From Vulcanimicrobiota bacterium (GTDB lineage Bacteria; Vulcanimicrobiota; Vulcanimicrobiia; Vulcanimicrobiales; Vulcanimicrobiaceae), in assembly GCA_003133185.1 (NCBI GenBank), contig PKWF01000058.1, forward strand, positions 745-14,447: a DNA stretch of 13,703 nucleotides. Reading direction: 5' to 3'. The stretch's first letter is position 1, and every line of letters starts with the position of its first letter. The notes under the pieces were generated by a model. The model ran no database searches and was not told where the DNA came from. It worked only from the letters and a program-made list of their open reading frames with translations. A program made the translations under genes and the position numbers. Below, one piece after another: positions 3,778 through 13,417 of this stretch.

Positions 3778-5334
3778 TTAGCGGCGCTTTGCCGCGGGCT
3801 TTTTCTTTTTGACGCTCTTCTTCGCGCGTCCGGCGGCGATCCGCTTCGGCTTCGCCGGGCGGCGCGGTGCGGCGGTCTTTGCTGCCGGTTTCTTACGAAT
3901 GGGTTTTTTGCTGGAGGCTTTTTTGGTAACCTTCTTGCTGCCGCCGCCCTTGCTGGAGCTCTTCTTGGCGACGCTCTTGCGGGCGGGCGCGGCCTTTTTC
4001 GCGACGGGTCGCGACGGCTTTACGGCGGGCTTCTTTGCTTTGGGCGTTGGGGCCGGCAGTCGCGCGGGTTTTTTCTTTTCGGGAGCGGCGGGTTTGGCTA
4101 CGCGCGCGGCCTTTGCTTTGGTCGCCGACGACGTCGAGTCGGCGCTGCGGCGAGACGTGCTCGTAGCCGGCGGAGCCGTGACGGTGGGGCGCTTCGACGT
4201 GCGAGCCGAGTCGCCGGCGCGCTTCTTCGGCCCGCTTTCGCGTGTGGCGCGGCCACCTTCGCGATGTCCGGCCGGCTCCTCTTCAGGCAATCCAAGCTCG
4301 GCCCGGCCGTAGCCCGTGATGCTGCTGCCCGGCACGGCCGGCTGACGGCCTGCTTGGGCCTGCGCCTCCAGATGTTCTCGCGTCGCGCGCAACGCAACCC
4401 GAGCCAGCCTTCCCGCAACTGGAAAGACCAACTCGTTGATGTGCGCGTCGTCAAGCAACCCGAGGACGACGTCGAACGCATTGCCCTGATCCTTCGGACT
4501 GTGGGCGTCAGATCCAATCGCGATGCCGACTCCGCGGGCCTTAGCTTTGCGGATCAGTCTCGCATTGGCTTCGAGGTATTTCTTTTTGCGATCCTCGGGA
4601 TGGTCGCGGTAGAGGAACCGCGTGTTGATCTCGACGGCGATGCCTCGCTGATGGCAGATATCGAGCAAACGATCCTCGTAGTGCTCGAGCGTCTTTTGGG
4701 CGGGCCAGCGCCCGAGCGTCGCCGGAACGTAGAAGTGCCCGGCGATGTGCGTGGGCAGCTTCTCCAGATCGTCGAACAACTTGGCGGTGTAGAGTTCCCA
4801 GAGCGTCTCCGTGCCGACCGCTTCGTACAGGTCGATAAACTCCTCACTGTCAAAGGGCCACGGCCACTCTGCCCCTTTTTCCGGATGTTGGATCGGAACG
4901 AAGTGCACCGAGCGGATAATTCCGTCGGGGCGCAGTGCGTCAACGATGTTCTGCGCATCGGGCCGCGCGCGCGGGTCGTTATCCATCTCAGCGCCGATCG
5001 CGAATCGCATGCCCCGGCGCAACCCCTCCGAGACGATCGCGGCGTGCGGAGAATCGACGCCGGCCGTTTCGGCCGCACCGATCAGGTCGCCCGCCTGTGC
5101 CAGCTTGAGCGCCCGGCGGACCGTGGCGACCGCTCCAGGATCCTCGAATGTCAAATAGTTGGCGTGGTCGGCAACCATCAAAAAGCGTGGAGATAAGCGG
5201 CGACAGGCGTGGTAAAACCAGAGGAAGAGCATTCGCGCGGAATACGCGAGCGGCCGTTCCTCCGTAAAAGGCCGGTGTTCGCCTTTGGCGTGACCGTGGA
5301 CGTCGGGGATGGCGGCGATCCGAGGATCGGTCAT
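3778..5334 (-). CDS. PHP-domain phosphoesterase with lysine-rich histone H1-like C-terminal tail
   Basis: The 518-residue protein has a polymerase/histidinol phosphatase (PHP) domain over about 1-320. Metal-site motifs appear in the expected order: DVHGH (11-15), ADH (55-57), GAE116, SVH144, AGH200, VEIN (234-237) and GSDAH (274-278). Such domains bind two or three metals and hydrolyse phosphoesters; the exact substrate is not evident. Residues about 363-518 are Lys/Ala/Pro/Ser-rich with KKPAAK- and AKKS-type repeats, like histone H1 or bacterial HU/H1-like tails, and probably bind DNA or RNA. The ATG at 5334 is chosen because homology begins right after it (MTDPRIAAIPDVHGH). The frame stays open upstream to 5709, but that part runs across the alkyltransferase gene and looks non-coding. 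No good Shine-Dalgarno is seen. It lies 44 bases downstream of the alkyltransferase and 28 upstream of the EF-G-like gene. Confidence 0.85.
   Translation of the reverse strand: MTDPRIAAIPDVHGHAKGEHRPFTEERPLAYSARMLFLWFYHACRRLSPRFLMVADHANYLTFEDPGAVATVRRALKLAQAGDLIGAAETAGVDSPHAAIVSEGLRRGMRFAIGAEMDNDPRARPDAQNIVDALRPDGIIRSVHFVPIQHPEKGAEWPWPFDSEEFIDLYEAVGTETLWELYTAKLFDDLEKLPTHIAGHFYVPATLGRWPAQKTLEHYEDRLLDICHQRGIAVEINTRFLYRDHPEDRKKKYLEANARLIRKAKARGVGIAIGSDAHSPKDQGNAFDVVLGLLDDAHINELVFPVAGRLARVALRATREHLEAQAQAGRQPAVPGSSITGYGRAELGLPEEEPAGHREGGRATRESGPKKRAGDSARTSKRPTVTAPPATSTSRRSADSTSSATKAKAARVAKPAAPEKKKPARLPAPTPKAKKPAVKPSRPVAKKAAPARKSVAKKSSSKGGGSKKVTKKASSKKPIRKKPAAKTAAPRRPAKPKRIAAGRAKKSVKKKKPAAKRR
3781..4248 (-). 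repeat. Low-complexity Lys/Ala/Pro-rich coding repeat (H1-like tail)
   Basis: This segment encodes residues 363-518 of the PHP protein. It is built of degenerate short units rich in AAG/AAA, GCC/GCG and CCG codons, which appear on the plus strand as recurrent T-rich blocks. The units are not exact tandem repeats. Such tracts evolve by slippage, so length may vary between strains. Confidence 0.6.
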
Positions 5335-5378: not shown

Positions 5379-6110
5379 CTAGCCGCGGTAGCCCTCCATT
5401 TGAAGAAGCCGTGCCTTCATTTCGAGTCCGTAAAAATAGTCGTGCAGGTCGCCCGACGAGTCGACGACGCGGTGGCACGGAAAGAGCAGCGGAAGCGGAT
5501 TGCGCGCCATTACGCGGCCGACTGCGCGCGCGGCTTTGGGTCGTCCGATCTGCGTCGCGACCCATGCGTACGAACGAACTTCGCCAGGAGGGATGCGAGC
5601 CGCCGCCCGAAGCGCGGCTTGTTCGAACGGCGTGAGATTGCTGATATCGACGACCGCGTCGTCGACCTTCCAGGTACTGAAGAATCGTTCGATGGCGCTC
5701 ACGAGCCATGGTGGCGCCTGTCCCTGCACGACGCGCCGGCGCAAACGGCGTTCGGCGCGGGCGGCAACTTCTTCGGGCGAACCGCCGGTGTCCAGGCTAA
5801 GGTAGGCGATGCGGTTGTCTTTGAATCCGGCGTAGAGCCGTCCCAGCGGCGTCGAGATCGCGGAGAGCACGATCGGCGCGGCCATCGCGCCCTTGAGCGC
5901 GGCAAGGTGTTGGATGACCTTTTTCGTGAGGTCGCACGAAGGTTCGGGAAGCGGCAGACAGGAGAGGCAGTAAGCGACCCCCGCGTATTGTTCGTAGACC
6001 GCCTGACAGGAGGGACAGGCTCGAAGATGAGTATGGACGGTCTCTTTTAGCGAGGCTTGGCACTCGCCGCGAAGCTCGTCCCATAATGCATCGACGTCAC
6101 GACAACGCAT
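5379..6110 (-). CDS. Zinc-finger anti-sigma domain fused to O6-alkylguanine-DNA alkyltransferase
   Basis: The protein has 243 residues and two parts. Residues 1-70 look like a ZAS anti-sigma domain: Cys3, then His28-x3-Cys32-x2-Cys35, followed by a Cys-rich and Pro-rich stretch (48-60). No membrane helix follows, so it should be soluble. Residues 80-243 are an Ogt/MGMT alkyltransferase. Relative to human AGT, the Tyr (181), arginine finger (Arg195), Asn204, nucleophile Cys212 in PCHR, His213 and Glu239 all match, so transfer of an alkyl group from O6-alkylguanine to Cys212 should be possible. The loop after PCHR reads YFYG where human AGT has YSGG, placing bulky residues near the pocket. The gene overlaps the sigma gene by 14 bases and has AAGGAG nine bases before its ATG, so the two are translated together. 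I infer that it inhibits the adjacent sigma factor and releases it on alkylation stress. Confidence 0.88.
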   Translation of the reverse strand: MRCRDVDALWDELRGECQASLKETVHTHLRACPSCQAVYEQYAGVAYCLSCLPLPEPSCDLTKKVIQHLAALKGAMAAPIVLSAISTPLGRLYAGFKDNRIAYLSLDTGGSPEEVAARAERRLRRRVVQGQAPPWLVSAIERFFSTWKVDDAVVDISNLTPFEQAALRAAARIPPGEVRSYAWVATQIGRPKAARAVGRVMARNPLPLLFPCHRVVDSSGDLHDYFYGLEMKARLLQMEGYRG

Positions 6111-6744
6111 GAGCGGGAACTCCTTCCGGGTTGAATCTTCCGATCTGCGGGCCGAGAATGCGTCGCAGGATGCGTACGGCCCGATGAACGTGGGACTTCA
6201 CCGTTCCGATCGGTTGGTTAAGAATTTCGGCGATCTCCGGGTGGCTGCGCCCTTCGATGAAGCGTAGAGTGGCCGCGGCACGCAAATGCATCGGCAGTTG
6301 GAGCAGCGCACGCTCGACCAGCGCAATCTCGGTGTTTTGTTCGACGATTCTTTCGGGCTGAGGCGGCCCCTCGTTCGATTCGCGTAACAGAGCGTCGGGG
6401 TCGGCGAGCGCATCGAGGGCCACGTTGACGGGGCGCTTGCTGCGGAGCCGATTGCGGGTGACGTTCAGCGTAATCGTATAGAGCCAGGGCTGCAGCCGCA
6501 GATCGGCGCGCTGCTCGAGCGACATTTTTCCCAGAGCGCGATAGGCGCGCACGAAGGCGTCCTGAACGATCTCTTCAGCGTCCTCTCGGTTTCCCGTCAT
6601 TCGTAGTGCAAACCCGTAGAGCCGCCGCTGGTAGTCGTCGACGATTCTCTCAAACTTTTCGACGCTCGGAATCGAGGCCGCCGCCTGCGCGACCGCAGCC
6701 GTCCGCGCGGCCGTCGTCCGGCCCGATGGAGTCGCTGATGGCAC
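6097..6744 (-). CDS. ECF-type RNA polymerase sigma factor
   Basis: This is a small sigma-70 family protein containing only regions 2 and 4. Region 2 is YQRRLYGFALRMTGNREDAEEIVQDAF (about residues 38-64) plus the PWLYTITLNVTRNRLR segment. Region 4 ends in a helix-turn-helix (HPEIAEILNQPIGTVKSHVHRA, about 168-189). It directs RNA polymerase to a dedicated promoter set. I chose the GTG at 6744 (215 residues) because GGGAG lies five bases before it. A GTG at 6756 in the same frame has no Shine-Dalgarno but would add only four residues. The stop lies inside the 5' end of the next gene, which encodes a ZAS domain, the usual arrangement of an ECF sigma and its own anti-sigma factor. It is first in a collinear run of minus-strand genes. 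Autoregulation is likely by family precedent, but I cannot identify a convincing promoter. Confidence 0.93.
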   Translation of the reverse strand: MPSATPSGRTTAARTAAVAQAAASIPSVEKFERIVDDYQRRLYGFALRMTGNREDAEEIVQDAFVRAYRALGKMSLEQRADLRLQPWLYTITLNVTRNRLRSKRPVNVALDALADPDALLRESNEGPPQPERIVEQNTEIALVERALLQLPMHLRAAATLRFIEGRSHPEIAEILNQPIGTVKSHVHRAVRILRRILGPQIGRFNPEGVPAHALS

Positions 6745-6756
6745 GTATACTCCCAC

Positions 6757-6985
6757 GAAGGAGTGGTGCAGGTGCGCTCATACAGTGCCCCCGACACCAC
6801 CGCTAGGGCCGGTGGTTTCACATCGTGGGAGAAAACTCCTCAAAACCGCGGTAGTGCGCGCGCGAGCGCAGGGAAATTTTCCCTCGTTTCTAAAAGGTCG
6901 CCATGCCGATTTCGCTCGGGCCGCCGGCCCGAACCCCGTAGGAAACCGCTTCGCTCCCCTTTACAGAGACGAAGCGGTTTTTTGT
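6757..6985 (+). ncRNA. Possible structured small RNA in the sigma-factor upstream gap
   Basis: The gap contains a series of potential hairpins in plus-strand order: 6796-6816 (7-bp stem ACCACCG/CGGTGGT), 6828-6839 (GGAG/CTCC with AAAA loop), 6855-6870 (TGCGC/GCGCA), 6871-6883 (GGGAAA/TTTCCC) and 6916-6932 (7-bp TCGGGCC/GGCCCGA). They end at a strong plus-strand intrinsic terminator although no plus-strand protein gene precedes it. A TATACT hexamer at 6745-6750 could be a -10 box, but I see no good -35. It does not match any riboswitch, 6S, SRP or RNase P signature I know. It could instead be the long 5' leader or control region of the minus-strand sigma gene. Confidence 0.3.
6943..6983 (+). 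terminator. Intrinsic terminator, plus strand
   Basis: An 11-bp perfect stem, AAACCGCTTCG (6943-6953) with CGAAGCGGTTT (6970-6980), encloses a 16-base loop and runs into six T residues. On the minus strand only three T residues follow the stem, so it is oriented for a plus-strand transcript ending just before the gene at 7023. No plus-strand protein gene lies upstream within the gap. Confidence 0.75.
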
Positions 6986-9788: not shown

Positions 9789-10178
9789 TTATTCTTCGTC
9801 GGGCCAATCGGCGAGTTTGCCGATTGCCGCGCTCTTGAGCACGCGCAAGCCAAGCATCGCGCATTTCATGCGGGTTGGGCTGATTCCGATTCCGACATTT
9901 TCTAAGACGGCGTCCTTGGGCAACTGCGCGACGTCGGTGAGCTTCATTCCCTTGACGGTCTCCAGCAGCATCGACGTCGAAGCCTGGCTGATGGCGCACC
10001 CCTTTCCGGAGAAGCGCACGTCGCTGATCTTGCCGTCGTCGAGCTTGAGCTCGACGCGGATTTGGTCACCGCAGAGCGGATTAACGTCTTCGGCCGCTAC
10101 ATCGGGCTGCTCGAGAGTTCCAAAGTTGCGCGGACTGCGGTAGTGGTCGAGGATGTAATCCCGGTAGAAATCGTCCAT
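9789..10178 (-). CDS. sufU: SufU, zinc-dependent sulfur-transfer/scaffold protein of Fe-S assembly
   Basis: The 129-residue protein starts MDDFYRDYILDHYRSPRNFG, typical of SufU/IscU-like proteins. Conserved ligands are Cys36 in NPLCGD with Asp38, Cys61 in GKGCAISQAS and Cys106 in RMKC. The insertion before the third Cys (about residues 78-100) and Arg in place of the IscU His (RMKC instead of HC) mark it as SufU rather than IscU. SufU binds zinc and accepts persulfide sulfur from SufS for delivery to the SufBCD scaffold. Its ATG shares one base with the sufS stop (TGATG), so translation is coupled. It is the last gene of the minus-strand suf operon and converges on the gene ending at 9756. 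Confidence 0.95.
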   Translation of the reverse strand: MDDFYRDYILDHYRSPRNFGTLEQPDVAAEDVNPLCGDQIRVELKLDDGKISDVRFSGKGCAISQASTSMLLETVKGMKLTDVAQLPKDAVLENVGIGISPTRMKCAMLGLRVLKSAAIGKLADWPDEE

Positions 10179-11398
10179 CAGATGTGAAAGACGCGCGCTG
10201 CTTTTTCGAGGCCCTCACAAAGCGCGTCGACATCGGCCTCCGTGTTGTAAATGTAGAACGAGGCGCGAGCGGTGGCGCTCCAGCCTGATTTCTCCATCAG
10301 CGGCATCGTGCAGTGATGACCCGCCCGTATGCAAACGCCTTCGGTGTCCAGAATTGAGGCAAGATCGTGCGGGTGGATATCGCCGAAATTGAACGATATA
10401 ACGCCGGAGCTTCGCGCCGGATCCCGCGGCCCGTAGATCGCGAGACCGCGCGGCTCGAGCGTGGCAAGGCGTTCCAGCGCGTAACCCGTCAACGCACGCT
10501 CGTGCTCGCGAACCCACGGCATCCCGAGCGCCGCTAGATAGTCGGCGGCGACGCCGAATGCGATGGTGTCAGCGATGTTGCTCGTCCCGGCCTCGAAACG
10601 GCGCGGCGGATCGTTAAAAGTGGTTCGAGTATATTCGACCTTGCGAATCATGTCGCCGCCGGAGAGAAACGGAGGCATCGCTTCCAAGAGCTCGCGCTTC
10701 CCGTAGAGACATCCGATTCCGGTCGGTCCGAGCATCTTGTGTCCGCTAAAGGCGTAAAAATCGGCATCGAGTGCCTTGACGTCGAGGGGAAGATGCGGCG
10801 CACCTTGCGCCCCGTCCACGAGCACGACCGCACCGGCCGCGTGCGCGCGGGGGATGATGGTCTCCAGCGGCGCAATGGTTCCCAGCGTATTGCTGACGTG
10901 CGAGATCGCAACGAGTTTGCAGCCGTCGAGCAGCCGGTCGAGGTCGTCGAGAACGTGGATGCCGCGAGCGTCGACCGGAATGAAACGTAGCTGCGCTCCG
11001 GTTCGTTGCGCCAGAAGCTGCCACGGAACGAGATCCGAATGATGCTCGAGCTCGGTGAGCAGGATGGCATCGCCCGCGGTTATGTTGTGGTCGCCCCAGG
11101 AATAGGCGACTAAGTTTATCGCTTCGGTGGTGTTGCGGACCCAGACGACCTCGGAGGTTTGGGCGCCGATAAAACGCGCGAGCTTAACCCGAGCGTGCTC
11201 GTACTCGTCGGTGGCGCGTTGGGCGATCTCGTAGACGCCGCGGTGGATGTTCGCGTTATATTGCTCGTAGTAGTCCACGAGCGCCTGGATGACGGCTCGC
11301 GGTTTCTGGGACGTCGCTGCGGAGTCGAGATAGACCAGCCGTTTCCCGCGCGACGTCGGCCGCGCCAGAATCGGAAAATCGGCAATGATGCGCTCCAT
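10178..11398 (-). CDS. sufS: SufS, PLP-dependent cysteine desulfurase
   Basis: SufS takes sulfur from L-cysteine, giving alanine and an enzyme persulfide that is passed to SufU. From the ATG at 11398 the protein has 406 residues, the same length as E. coli SufS. It shows LVYLDSAATSQKP near the N-terminus, the LEHHSD motif, HVSNTLG, DGAQ and SGHK(221)MLGPTG with the PLP lysine, and RAGHHC(363)TMPLM with the catalytic cysteine. The ATG start has AGGGTGA seven bases upstream. A GTG at 11449 overlapping the sufD stop would add 17 residues (MTQTLRPPFDRAQGDKA) that come from a dispersed DNA repeat, so I prefer the ATG. Coupled re-initiation at the GTG cannot be excluded. It lies between sufD and sufU in the same operon. 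Confidence 0.95.
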   Translation of the reverse strand: MERIIADFPILARPTSRGKRLVYLDSAATSQKPRAVIQALVDYYEQYNANIHRGVYEIAQRATDEYEHARVKLARFIGAQTSEVVWVRNTTEAINLVAYSWGDHNITAGDAILLTELEHHSDLVPWQLLAQRTGAQLRFIPVDARGIHVLDDLDRLLDGCKLVAISHVSNTLGTIAPLETIIPRAHAAGAVVLVDGAQGAPHLPLDVKALDADFYAFSGHKMLGPTGIGCLYGKRELLEAMPPFLSGGDMIRKVEYTRTTFNDPPRRFEAGTSNIADTIAFGVAADYLAALGMPWVREHERALTGYALERLATLEPRGLAIYGPRDPARSSGVISFNFGDIHPHDLASILDTEGVCIRAGHHCTMPLMEKSGWSATARASFYIYNTEADVDALCEGLEKAARVFHI

Positions 11399-11405
11399 AG
11401 CCTTG

Positions 11406-11428
11406 TCACCCTGAGCGCGGTCGAAGGG
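11406..11428. repeat. Short dispersed repeat at the sufD/sufS junction
   Basis: The segment containing CCCTGAGCGCGGTCGAAGGG has the form of a short repeat (CCCTGAGC-n-TCGAAGGG) that I know to be scattered through many bacterial genomes. It is often mistranslated as PFDRAQGD or LSAVEG peptides. It sits between the sufD stop and the sufS ATG. On the coding strand its AGGGTGA end is placed as the ribosome site of sufS. No second copy occurs in this window. Confidence 0.6.
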
Positions 11429-11445
11429 CGGGCGCAACGTTTGAG

Positions 11446-12654
11446 TCACGTAAGCTTTGCCGCCAGCGAAGTGCGAATTTCATCGCGCAGCGCTGCGGTT
11501 GGAAAGCGCTCGATGGCCGGCTCGAAGAAGCCCAGCGCGATCATGCGCTCAGCGGCGGCGCGTTCGAGGCCGCGGCTCTCCATGTAGAAGATTTGCTCGG
11601 CATCGATCGCGCCGACGGTCGCGCCGTGGTAGGCTTTGACGACGTTCGCGCCGATTTCGAGTGCGGGCACCGAATCGACGTGAGCGGTTGGCGAAAGCAG
11701 CAGCGCATCGTCGCGTAGACGTGCATCGCTTCCTTGAGCGTGGGGCGCGATGCGAATGTTACCGAGAAAGCGCGCCTGTCCGCGGTCCCGAGCGGCCGTC
11801 TTCACGATCGTTTCGGAAGTTGCGTCACCGGCACGGTGCTCGACGGTGCTCACGACATCGACGTGTTGCGAACCGCGTGGAAAGAAGATCGCCGTGAGAT
11901 TCGCCTCGGCTCCGGGCGCTTCGATCGAAACGGAGAGCTCGCTGGCGGCGAGTTCGCCGCCGAGCTCGGCCGATGCCCATGACATCCGCGCTTCGGGCCC
12001 GGGACGCGCGGCTCGGCTCCAGATAATTCGCGCGCCGTCGTCGACTTGCTGAAAAGCCGCGAAATGGACGTCCGCGCGCTCTTCGGTAACGACTTCGCTG
12101 GCACCGCAGAGAAAGGCTCCAGCGCCGCCTTCGAGACGTTCGACGATCGTGACGCGTGCGCCGCGTTCGGCGAGCACGACGGTCCACGGAAAGATTGCCG
12201 CTCCGGCGGGCGCTGTGTAGCGGATGACGACCGGGTCGTCGCAGGCATGGTCGGCTCGCACGTGCACGAAGACGCCGCACTGCGCGAAGGCCGCTGCGAG
12301 CGAGCCGAACTTCGTGGCCGCGATGCCGGTGGTTCCGAAGGCCCGCGCGAAAAGCTCGGGAGATTCGCGCGCGGCGGTCGCGAGGTCGCAAACGAAGACG
12401 GCCGGATCGTGATTTTCAACGCGCACGTTTCCGGCGCTTAGATCGATCGCGCCGGCCTCGGGTGCAATCGATTCGAAATCGACGCGCCAGAAGCGCCCCG
12501 GCTTTTCGCGACCGCTGCGTAACGAAACGAAGCGGTCGAGCGCGCGCGTCCGCTGCTCGATGGAGAACGGTGACAGACCCAGGCCGGCGACGCGGTCGTA
12601 GAGCCCTTGCGTCGTGTCGTCGCGACCGGCGACGACGGGAGCCGGACTAGGCAA
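11446..12654 (-). CDS. sufD: SufD, Fe-S cluster assembly scaffold subunit
   Basis: SufD partners SufB and SufC in the SufBC2D complex that builds Fe-S clusters. The C-terminal core is diagnostic: VVKAYHGATVGAIDAEQIFYM, with the conserved histidine about 60 residues from the end, and SRGLERAAAERMIALGFFEP. Ala replaces the cysteine that precedes this motif in E. coli SufD. The N-terminal part (SPFSIEQRTRALDRF) and length of about 400 residues fit SufD rather than the longer SufB. The start is uncertain. A TTG at 12654 has GAGGAG ten bases upstream and overlaps the sufC stop by eight bases. A GTG at 12663 sits too close to that site. The frame stays open to 12744, but that part lies over sufC and has no SufD similarity. 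The stop overlaps a possible sufS GTG by four bases. Confidence 0.9.
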   Translation of the reverse strand: MPSPAPVVAGRDDTTQGLYDRVAGLGLSPFSIEQRTRALDRFVSLRSGREKPGRFWRVDFESIAPEAGAIDLSAGNVRVENHDPAVFVCDLATAARESPELFARAFGTTGIAATKFGSLAAAFAQCGVFVHVRADHACDDPVVIRYTAPAGAAIFPWTVVLAERGARVTIVERLEGGAGAFLCGASEVVTEERADVHFAAFQQVDDGARIIWSRAARPGPEARMSWASAELGGELAASELSVSIEAPGAEANLTAIFFPRGSQHVDVVSTVEHRAGDATSETIVKTAARDRGQARFLGNIRIAPHAQGSDARLRDDALLLSPTAHVDSVPALEIGANVVKAYHGATVGAIDAEQIFYMESRGLERAAAERMIALGFFEPAIERFPTAALRDEIRTSLAAKLT

Positions 12655-13417
12655 CGACCGCACTCTCCTCACGCAGTTTGTCGTACCCTTCACGCTCGAT
12701 GCGATGCGCCAGGTCGTGGCCGCCGGTCTTGACGATGCGCCCATCGATCATGACGTGCACGACGTCGGGGACGACGTACGAGAGTATCCGCGGATAGTGC
12801 GTGATGATCAAGAAACCGGTGTTGCGTCCCTCTTCACTCGCGCGCAAGGCGGCGATGGAGCTACCGACGTCCTTAAGGGCATCGATGTCGAGACCCGAAT
12901 CGGTTTCGTCGAGAATCGCATACTTTGGCGCTAAGACGGCCAGCTGCAGCATTTCGATCCGCTTTTTTTCGCCGCCTGAAAAGCCGTCGTTGAGATAGCG
13001 GCCCATGAACGAGGGATCGATCCCGAGCTGCTCCATCTTTTCCACCAGGAGTGCGCGGAACTTGGCGGGCGGAAGATCGCCGGGCCGTTCGGCCTGCCGA
13101 GCGGCGTGAAGAAAGTTCGCGACCTTCACCCCCGGGATCGCGGCCGGATACTGGAAGGAGAGGAAGAGTCCGGCGCGGGCGCGCTTATCCGGAGGAAGCG
13201 CCAGCATGTCCTCGCCGTCGAGTTCGACGCTTCCGCCGGTCACCTCATATTGAGGATGGCCGGTAATCGCGAAGGCGAGCGTCGATTTGCCGCTTCCGTT
13301 CGGGCCCATGAGCGCGTGAATTTTTCCCCGATCGACGGTGAGATCGATCCCCTTGAGGATTTCCTTGCCGGCGATTTGGCACCGGAGGTCGGTGACACGA
13401 AGAGCGTGGTCGGGCAT
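12647..13417 (-). CDS. sufC: SufC, ABC-type ATPase of the SUF system
   Basis: The 256-residue soluble ABC ATPase powers the SufBC2D scaffold. Walker A is GPNGSGKST (38-46), followed by a Q-loop in SFQYP, the signature FSGGEKKR, Walker B AILDETDSGLDIDAL and the switch histidine in ITHY. The DETDSGLD Walker B and FSGGEKKR signature are typical of SufC. It is the first gene of the minus-strand suf operon and is followed by sufD with an overlap. The ATG at 13417 lacks a clear Shine-Dalgarno and lies only seven bases after a candidate -10 box, so the mRNA may be almost leaderless. Confidence 0.96.
   Translation of the reverse strand: MPDHALRVTDLRCQIAGKEILKGIDLTVDRGKIHALMGPNGSGKSTLAFAITGHPQYEVTGGSVELDGEDMLALPPDKRARAGLFLSFQYPAAIPGVKVANFLHAARQAERPGDLPPAKFRALLVEKMEQLGIDPSFMGRYLNDGFSGGEKKRIEMLQLAVLAPKYAILDETDSGLDIDALKDVGSSIAALRASEEGRNTGFLIITHYPRILSYVVPDVVHVMIDGRIVKTGGHDLAHRIEREGYDKLREESAVVA

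Follow-up and report, generated by a model that had tools for sequence, protein, structure and literature searches.

An ECF sigma factor gene overlapping a zinc anti-sigma/alkyltransferase fusion gene in Candidatus Eremiobacterota: a possible Ada-like switch for DNA alkylation

Introduction

A stretch of 13,703 nucleotides from a member of Candidatus Eremiobacterota (contig PKWF01000058.1 of assembly GCA_003133185.1, positions 745 to 14,447), referred to here as the window, carries an unusual gene pair on its minus strand. A gene for an extracytoplasmic function (ECF) sigma factor overlaps a gene whose product joins a zinc-binding anti-sigma (ZAS) domain to an O6-methylguanine-DNA methyltransferase (MGMT). 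The pair was first observed in an earlier note made from the letters of the window, and its presence has been confirmed. Gene order, domains, conserved zinc ligands and active site, a promoter motif, selection on the fusion and relatives located in repair operons were all shown; binding of this sigma factor by the ZAS domain, MGMT activity, release upon methylation and the regulon are inferred. The interpretation in the earlier note is partly supported. The best of the readings considered is a switch resembling Ada, in which sigma and anti-sigma parts would respond to DNA alkylation and control their own synthesis, a proposal given about an even chance of being correct.

The sigma factor and its fused partner

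The pair and its junction comprise the following features.

6097..6756, minus strand: gene for the ECF (sigma-70 family) sigma factor, from the open reading frame and Pfam; its start is uncertain and a GTG is assumed.
5379..6110, minus strand: gene for the ZAS-MGMT fusion, 243 residues, the proposed anti-sigma factor and alkylation sensor, from the open reading frame, Pfam, conservation and a profile match.
6097..6110, minus strand: overlap of the two genes, 14 bases (ATGCGTTGTCGTGA), read from the sequence; its length is equal in 77 of 94 loci.
6120..6125, minus strand: AAGGAG within the sigma gene, likely to serve the fusion gene as ribosome-binding site, read from the sequence.

Regions 2 and 4 of the sigma factor are both recognised by Pfam above the cut-off (Sigma70_r2, 57.1 bits; Sigma70_r4_2, 48.8 bits). 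Among its nearest relatives of solved structure are 6in7_B, by name an RNA polymerase sigma-H factor, and SigW (5wuq_A). In most aligned relatives, the sigma factor starts at the ATG of 'MSA(L)APL'. In the window and its two nearest aligned relatives (L016 and L017), this ATG does not share the reading frame of the sigma gene, and a GTG start was therefore assumed. The displaced ATG (in the region 6757-6830 of the window) implies that this sigma N-terminus is either shortened or begins elsewhere. The 14-base overlap described in the earlier note was recovered when positions 6097-6110 were read again.

The fusion itself is divided as follows.

5991..6110, minus strand: ZAS zinc anti-sigma part, residues 1-40, with ligands Cys3, His28, Cys32 and Cys35, from conservation and a profile match to RsiW.
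5865..5990, minus strand: linker, residues 41-82, in which the stretch 'PEPSCDLTKKVIQHL' aligns with the end of the RsiW anti-sigma domain.
5646..5864, minus strand: N-terminal half of the MGMT, residues 83-155, fast evolving and without a PF02870 match.
5382..5645, minus strand: catalytic and DNA-binding core of the MGMT, residues 156-243, matching PF01035 with E 8.7e-29.
5475..5477, minus strand: encodes Cys212, the methyl acceptor within the PCHR motif, kept in 93 of 93 sequences.

The zinc domain scores just under the Pfam threshold. zf-HC2 (PF13490) reaches 18.2 bits with the whole fusion and 20.9 bits with the N-terminus alone, for a cut-off of 22.2. The domain was judged real because its four ligands, which follow a C/H ... 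H-x3-C-x2-C pattern, do not vary in any of the 94 homologues, and because a profile of 20 homologous N-termini matches RsiW, an anti-sigma factor of solved structure (5wuq_C, E 5.4e-5). On the same two grounds, the HxxxCxxC zinc finger (Cys3, His28, Cys32, Cys35) claimed in the earlier note is upheld. The profile also matches 3hug_B weakly (E 0.02), and zf-HC2 is found at E up to 0.1 in 13 of the 20 N-termini. The RsiW and SigW matches are chains of one entry, 5wuq. The linker carries additional cysteines that are not universal (Cys48 in 78/94, Cys51 in 75/94 and Cys59 in 63/94 homologues).

The MGMT core is recognised well above threshold (DNA_binding_1, PF01035; 99.6 bits, cut-off 27). The N-terminal ribonuclease-like domain PF02870 has no Pfam match in the window fusion, and about 75 residues occupy its expected place. 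With L108 excluded as truncated at a contig end, Tyr181, Asn204, Cys212, His213 and Glu239 are kept in 93/93 sequences and Arg195 in 92/93, so that the full set of catalytic positions named in the earlier note is retained across the family. Two loop positions are also well kept: His223 in at least 90% of 54 sequences, and Tyr227 in 91/93. These correspond to Gly156 and Gly160 of human MGMT. At the position of Tyr227, an AraC-type MGMT protein of the window's own genome (L002) has Trp, and the solved Ogt-type relative 4bhc has Gly. Ada is methyl-selective and has a narrow pocket. With His and Tyr in place of Gly, the active-site pocket of the fusion may likewise be narrow and methyl-selective. 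The own genome also encodes an alkyltransferase-like protein (L004:1309-1758; G000:C234) with PAHR for PCHR; this replacement of the acceptor Cys by Ala is a trait of alkyltransferase-like (ATL) proteins.

Conservation and selection

The distribution of the fusion was surveyed in 149 genomes of the phylum, 103 in the order of the window and 46 outside it. Wider sampling took in 384 plasmid records and the best 120 matches of each protein search. The fusion with its N-terminus was found in 94 of the 103 genomes of the order (93 complete, one cut by a contig end). Its C-terminal part alone was found in four more (G045, G064, G070, G127), and none was seen in five, which are incomplete (G049, G063, G068, G114, G123). 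Complete fusions within the order match at E 2.2e-66 or better. Among the matches listed for the 46 genomes outside the order, the fusion was not found; the best E is 3.7e-24, and the matches start at residue 74 or later. In the 384 plasmid records, a single match (Bernardetia, starting at residue 39) reached 80% coverage of the query, and none covered both ZAS and MGMT. Among named genome records, nine of the ten loci found belong to metagenome-assembled genomes of Candidatus Eremiobacterota; in the tenth (L014, Bacillota) the MGMT core alone matches.

An ECF gene lies directly upstream of the fusion in 94/94 loci. The two genes overlap by 14 bases in 77 loci, by 11 in five and by 0 in two, and are separated by 2-8 bases in ten. 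The earlier note had named homologues never adjoining a sigma gene as a refuting case, and the loci show the opposite. Complete members fall to 44% identity with the window, so this conservation does not merely reflect shared recency. In 15 genes of the genus, the ratio of nonsynonymous to synonymous substitution rates (dN/dS) is 0.077 for residues 1-40, 0.137 for the linker, 0.170 for the MGMT N-terminal half and 0.054 for the MGMT core. The ZAS domain and the MGMT core are thus both under purifying selection, which argues that the fusion is not a chance event.

The promoter of the operon

One further feature lies upstream of the pair.

6793..6820, minus strand: ECF-type promoter preceding the sigma gene, TGAAACC-N18-GTC, from an alignment of loci and a motif count.

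The promoter was found in 17/17 aligned loci of the genus and near relatives, with slightly variable spacing. Enough upstream sequence is available in 89 of the 94 loci, of which 79 have an assignable ATG and ten were dropped. In 75 of these 79, GAAAC lies 34-48 bases ahead of the ATG, compared with 2.1% of random windows. A conserved ECF-type promoter usually indicates that the ECF factor transcribes the operon in which it is encoded, and the sigma factor itself probably recognises this one, which points to autoregulation.

Other pairings of ECF sigma factors with MGMT

The arrangement of the window, here called type A, is one of three. In type B, the sigma factor is a paralogous ECF (46% identity; G029, G031), and its partner begins with a short stretch, continues with an MGMT core and ends in an Ada metal-binding domain. 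Twenty stretches around further MGMT matches yielded 14 type B loci and six plain MGMTs without such an arrangement. Full-length type B is present in 14/149 genomes of the phylum, and partial or broken forms in G117, G036 and G130. All 14 proteins keep the four Ada zinc cysteines; PF02805 was detected in the five that were scanned, above the cut-off in three and below it in two. An ECF gene lies upstream in 14/14, directly in 13 and as a broken frame in one (L196). HxxxCxxC was found in the first 70 residues of none of the 14. In four of the 14 (G029, G030, G129, G076), the pair has an Oxygenase-NA gene (PF09859) overlapping it or close by, from a family whose Pfam description gives damaged DNA as the substrate; Pfam was run on two of these, and in G030 only the gene start is present, at a contig end. 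The own genome, which is 68% complete, has no PF09859 match. By eye, the TGAAACC promoter seen in type A is missing from several type B sigma genes (L193-L195, L197-L200), which come after a short open frame ending VWND/ERR-like.

Type B also occurs on plasmids of Actinomycetota, in all six records with at least 80% query coverage. The ECF gene overlaps the partner start in Rubrobacter radiotolerans, Nonomuraea gerenzanensis and three Streptomyces plasmid records. The four Ada cysteines and PCHR are kept in 6/6 of these actinobacterial proteins. On a plasmid of Streptomyces sp. NBC_00212 (L228:1889-3235), sigma region 4, MGMT and the Ada domain are joined in a single chain of 448 residues. Pfam does not recognise sigma region 2 in this chain, and the MGMT Tyr and Arg positions are lost, for which reasons it may be decayed or repurposed.

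In type C, an ECF sigma factor is paired with a plain MGMT inside a repair operon. Gene names given here without a Pfam accession are those of the record annotation, and five of the 15 listed records were checked for ECF neighbours. On a plasmid of Arthrobacter sp. StoSoilB13 (L229:1303-4446), ogt, the ECF sigma gene, MGMT, AlkB (PF13532) and a methyladenine glycosylase (PF03352) follow one another, and the first four genes overlap. The corresponding order on a plasmid of Tsukamurella tyrosinosolvens (L231:1971-4929) is ogt, ECF, MGMT, 2OG-Fe oxygenase and AlkB. Rhodococcus antarcticus has ECF, MGMT, a 2OG-Fe oxygenase and a lone Ada-domain protein. The Caballeronia and Streptomyces sp. 3211 records have MGMT without an annotated ECF gene alongside. 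The overlapping Arthrobacter and Tsukamurella operons are candidates for an ECF-run adaptive response in Actinomycetota.

Origins of the pairing

In a tree of 59 MGMT domains, whose bootstrap was not fully settled, type A forms a single clade (support 100/97), and type B of both phyla forms another together with the f3 protein L202 (98/92). The two group with moderate support (91/63), which rises to 99/89 with one further f3 protein. An earlier, smaller tree had left the type A row L103 and the relation of A to B unplaced, and the larger tree placed both. L202, from a class relative (G027), has neither an upstream ECF gene nor an Ada domain; it is a possible pre-fusion relative. The type C MGMTs form a separate clade on the Ogt side of the tree (97/84), away from A and B, and the simplest reading of this tree is that ECF and MGMT were paired at least twice.

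The sigma factors of types A and B form one clade (100/97) in a tree with 24 other ECFs from the phylum, taken as best hits rather than at random. A second sigma tree added actinobacterial rows to 16 of the 28 A rows and 10 of the 13 B rows, with four long rows of other ECFs (L173, L177, L179 and L183) dropped. In it, the Arthrobacter type C sigma factor, on a very long branch, fell amid the type B actinobacterial rows (59/71). With support this weak, a common ancestry of all ECF-MGMT sigma factors is neither shown nor excluded by that tree.

Proposed mechanism and alternatives

In the proposed switch, the sigma factor and the fusion would be co-produced from a promoter of the type that the sigma factor recognises, and the N-terminal ZAS domain would hold the sigma factor. 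The C-terminal MGMT would scan DNA, flip out O6-methylguanine or a similar lesion and move the methyl group irreversibly onto Cys212. Methylation loosens the domain in known MGMTs. In the fusion, it would alter shape or stability and set the sigma factor free. The freed sigma factor would transcribe its own operon, giving more MGMT and more sensor, along with a putative set of further targets, and newly made unmethylated fusion would switch the response off.

The context outside the window supports alkylation sensing, because other ECF systems join MGMT to an Ada domain, some of them beside a demethylating oxygenase or other repair genes. An ECF sigma factor and an MGMT are common to types A, B and C; only A has the ZAS domain, and only B the fused Ada domain. 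The sensor was accordingly placed in the MGMT and not in the zinc cysteines. The latter appear less likely as the trigger, since type B keeps the MGMT without HxxxCxxC. The Ada metal-binding domain is present in 34/103 genomes of the order, a figure that counts type B, and in 2/18 of the genus, and this scarcity leaves room for type A in Ada's place but does not prove it.

Several results weigh against the alkylation switch. Apart from the fusion, no alkylation-repair gene was recognised in the window operon, whose neighbours are a PHP-domain gene and, often in relatives, a pyroglutamyl peptidase gene. Sites with the promoter pattern number nine in the own genome compared with ten for a reversed-pattern control, 38 compared with 21 in four relatives, and 47 compared with 31 in the five genomes together. 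The operon's own promoter was recovered in 5/5 of these genomes. Of the 47 sites, 39 were inspected, and no alkylation-repair gene was recognised downstream of any of them. A regulon is not claimed from this pattern, the totals being near those of the control. GAAAC is absent from the 150 bases upstream of the own genome's Ogt and lies at -112, off the promoter position, for its AraC-MGMT gene. Four Streptomyces type B proteins keep PCHR and have lost the MGMT Tyr and Arg-finger positions. A separate MGMT gene adjoins each of these four loci, where the Ada domain, not the MGMT, may be the sensor. In the lone Ada-domain protein of Rhodococcus, Gly replaces the first zinc cysteine. The MGMT tree could also be read as a single old ECF-MGMT pairing followed by losses.

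Three zinc cysteines, as in the ZAS domain here, are also a feature of redox-sensing anti-sigma factors, for which RsrA/SigR is the model, and this too counts against the proposal. In such a thiol or redox switch, the ZAS domain would sense oxidants or electrophiles via its zinc cysteines, with the MGMT fused as a repair passenger that is co-made or kept at RNA polymerase. The zinc site of three Cys and one His, the extra Cys48, Cys51 and Cys59 of many members and a weak match to the NCBIfam family antisig_RsrA (16.9 bits, cut-off 62.5) are in keeping with this idea. So are a few pattern sites shortly before a pirin gene (own genome), MerR-type regulator genes (L136, L145) and zinc-binding dehydrogenase genes, families that were Pfam-checked on one copy each. 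However, the extra cysteines are not universal, type B combines an ECF sigma factor and MGMT with HxxxCxxC in 0/14, and type C pairs the sigma factor with a plain MGMT inside repair operons. A redox switch is regarded as unlikely.

The fusion could instead be a positive co-regulator that, once methylated, would attach to damaged DNA or to promoters and bring in the sigma holoenzyme, much as methylated Ada activates. The MGMT core is a DNA-binding domain, an Ada metal-binding domain is present in type B, and sigma region 4, MGMT and the Ada domain share one chain in Streptomyces; Ada is described as an activator in PMC4437013. This explanation is improbable, as the type A N-terminus matches a true anti-sigma domain, that of RsiW, which favours inhibition, and the single Streptomyces chain may be decayed. 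Slightly more improbable still is an ordinary anti-sigma factor with a bystander enzyme, in which the ZAS domain inhibits, an unrelated cytoplasmic signal releases the sigma factor and the MGMT just repairs DNA. A regulon and other repair genes were indeed not found around type A. Against this stand the presence of the fusion in 94/103 genomes of the order, the strong constraint on both of its domains and the separate pairing of ECF with MGMT in a second phylum.

Neighbouring genes

One neighbour of the pair is conserved.

3778..5334, minus strand: PHP-domain gene, 44 bases 3' of the fusion, a conserved neighbour whose PHP match is below the Pfam cut-off.

The PHP gene is found downstream of the fusion in 88 of the 91 loci with room for it. 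In many relatives, a pyroglutamyl peptidase gene, confirmed by Pfam at one locus, lies between the two. Both were considered as parts of the switch and rejected; the order is conserved, but no link to alkylation was seen. The PHP gene is probably a merely linked neighbour. The C-terminal tail of the window PHP protein is very rich in lysine and alanine. Elsewhere in the window (9789-13417, minus strand), NifU_N, class-V aminotransferase, SufBD core and ABC ATPase domains follow consecutively in a SUF-type iron-sulfur cluster operon.

Relation to known systems

The proposed switch has been compared with several described systems. Like E. coli Ada, the fusion would use suicide methyl transfer of the MGMT type, is proposed to turn repair into a transcription signal and would be autoregulated. 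Unlike Ada, whose chemistry is outlined in PMC4437013, it lacks both an AraC-type DNA-binding part and an Ada metal-binding domain (PF02805), and its output is an ECF sigma factor. AdaA/AdaB and the AraC-MGMT regulators also couple MGMT to a transcription regulator, and one AraC-type MGMT protein (L002) is encoded in the own genome; these are one-component DNA binders without a sigma factor. With RsiW-SigW, the window pair shares the sigma gene followed by an adjacent or overlapping partner, the Cys/His...HxxxCxxC site and an ECF-type promoter, a likeness tested by profile. RsrA-SigR and ChrR-SigE are alike in gene order, zinc site and promoter. The C-terminal parts of known ZAS anti-sigma factors are a membrane segment, a cupin or nothing, whereas that of the window fusion is a complete DNA alkyltransferase.

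The closest precedent in print is ECF122. In the review PMC8999054, 6-O-methylguanine DNA methyltransferases are given as conserved neighbours of this group, with the mechanism unknown and an example from Cellulomonas, and the group is placed among those without a cognate anti-sigma factor. MGMT adjoins the ECF sigma gene in type A as well, but type A carries a ZAS domain, whereas ECF122 is listed there without an anti-sigma factor. Types B and C may be ECF122. The source of that paper for the group (its reference 7) is presumably the 2021 ECF reclassification. The earlier note knew of no such system. This held for the MGMT-anti-sigma fusion, which was not found among the titles and abstract starts of the matches listed in a full-text literature search whose coverage leaves out most subscription papers. 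It did not hold for the ECF-MGMT neighbourhood, which had been published as ECF122 (PMC8999054).

Conclusion

Taken together, the three arrangements may represent a general class of alkylation-sensing ECF switches in which the MGMT is the sensor controlling the sigma factor. Such a class would have arisen at least twice (A/B and C), would span two phyla and would replace Ada in many genomes of one order; in the form seen in the window, methylation of the MGMT would drive the ZAS domain off the sigma factor. This broader view is tentative, with a little less than an even chance of being right. ECF sigma factors are a major route of bacterial sensing, and the signal of many groups is unknown. 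If the proposal is true, a suicide repair enzyme joined to an anti-sigma domain would form a one-shot DNA-damage counter wired directly to RNA polymerase, and would solve in a second way the problem that Ada solves. The regulation of MGMT-linked ECF sigma factors, ECF122 and its relatives among them, would then become directly testable via one residue, Cys212.

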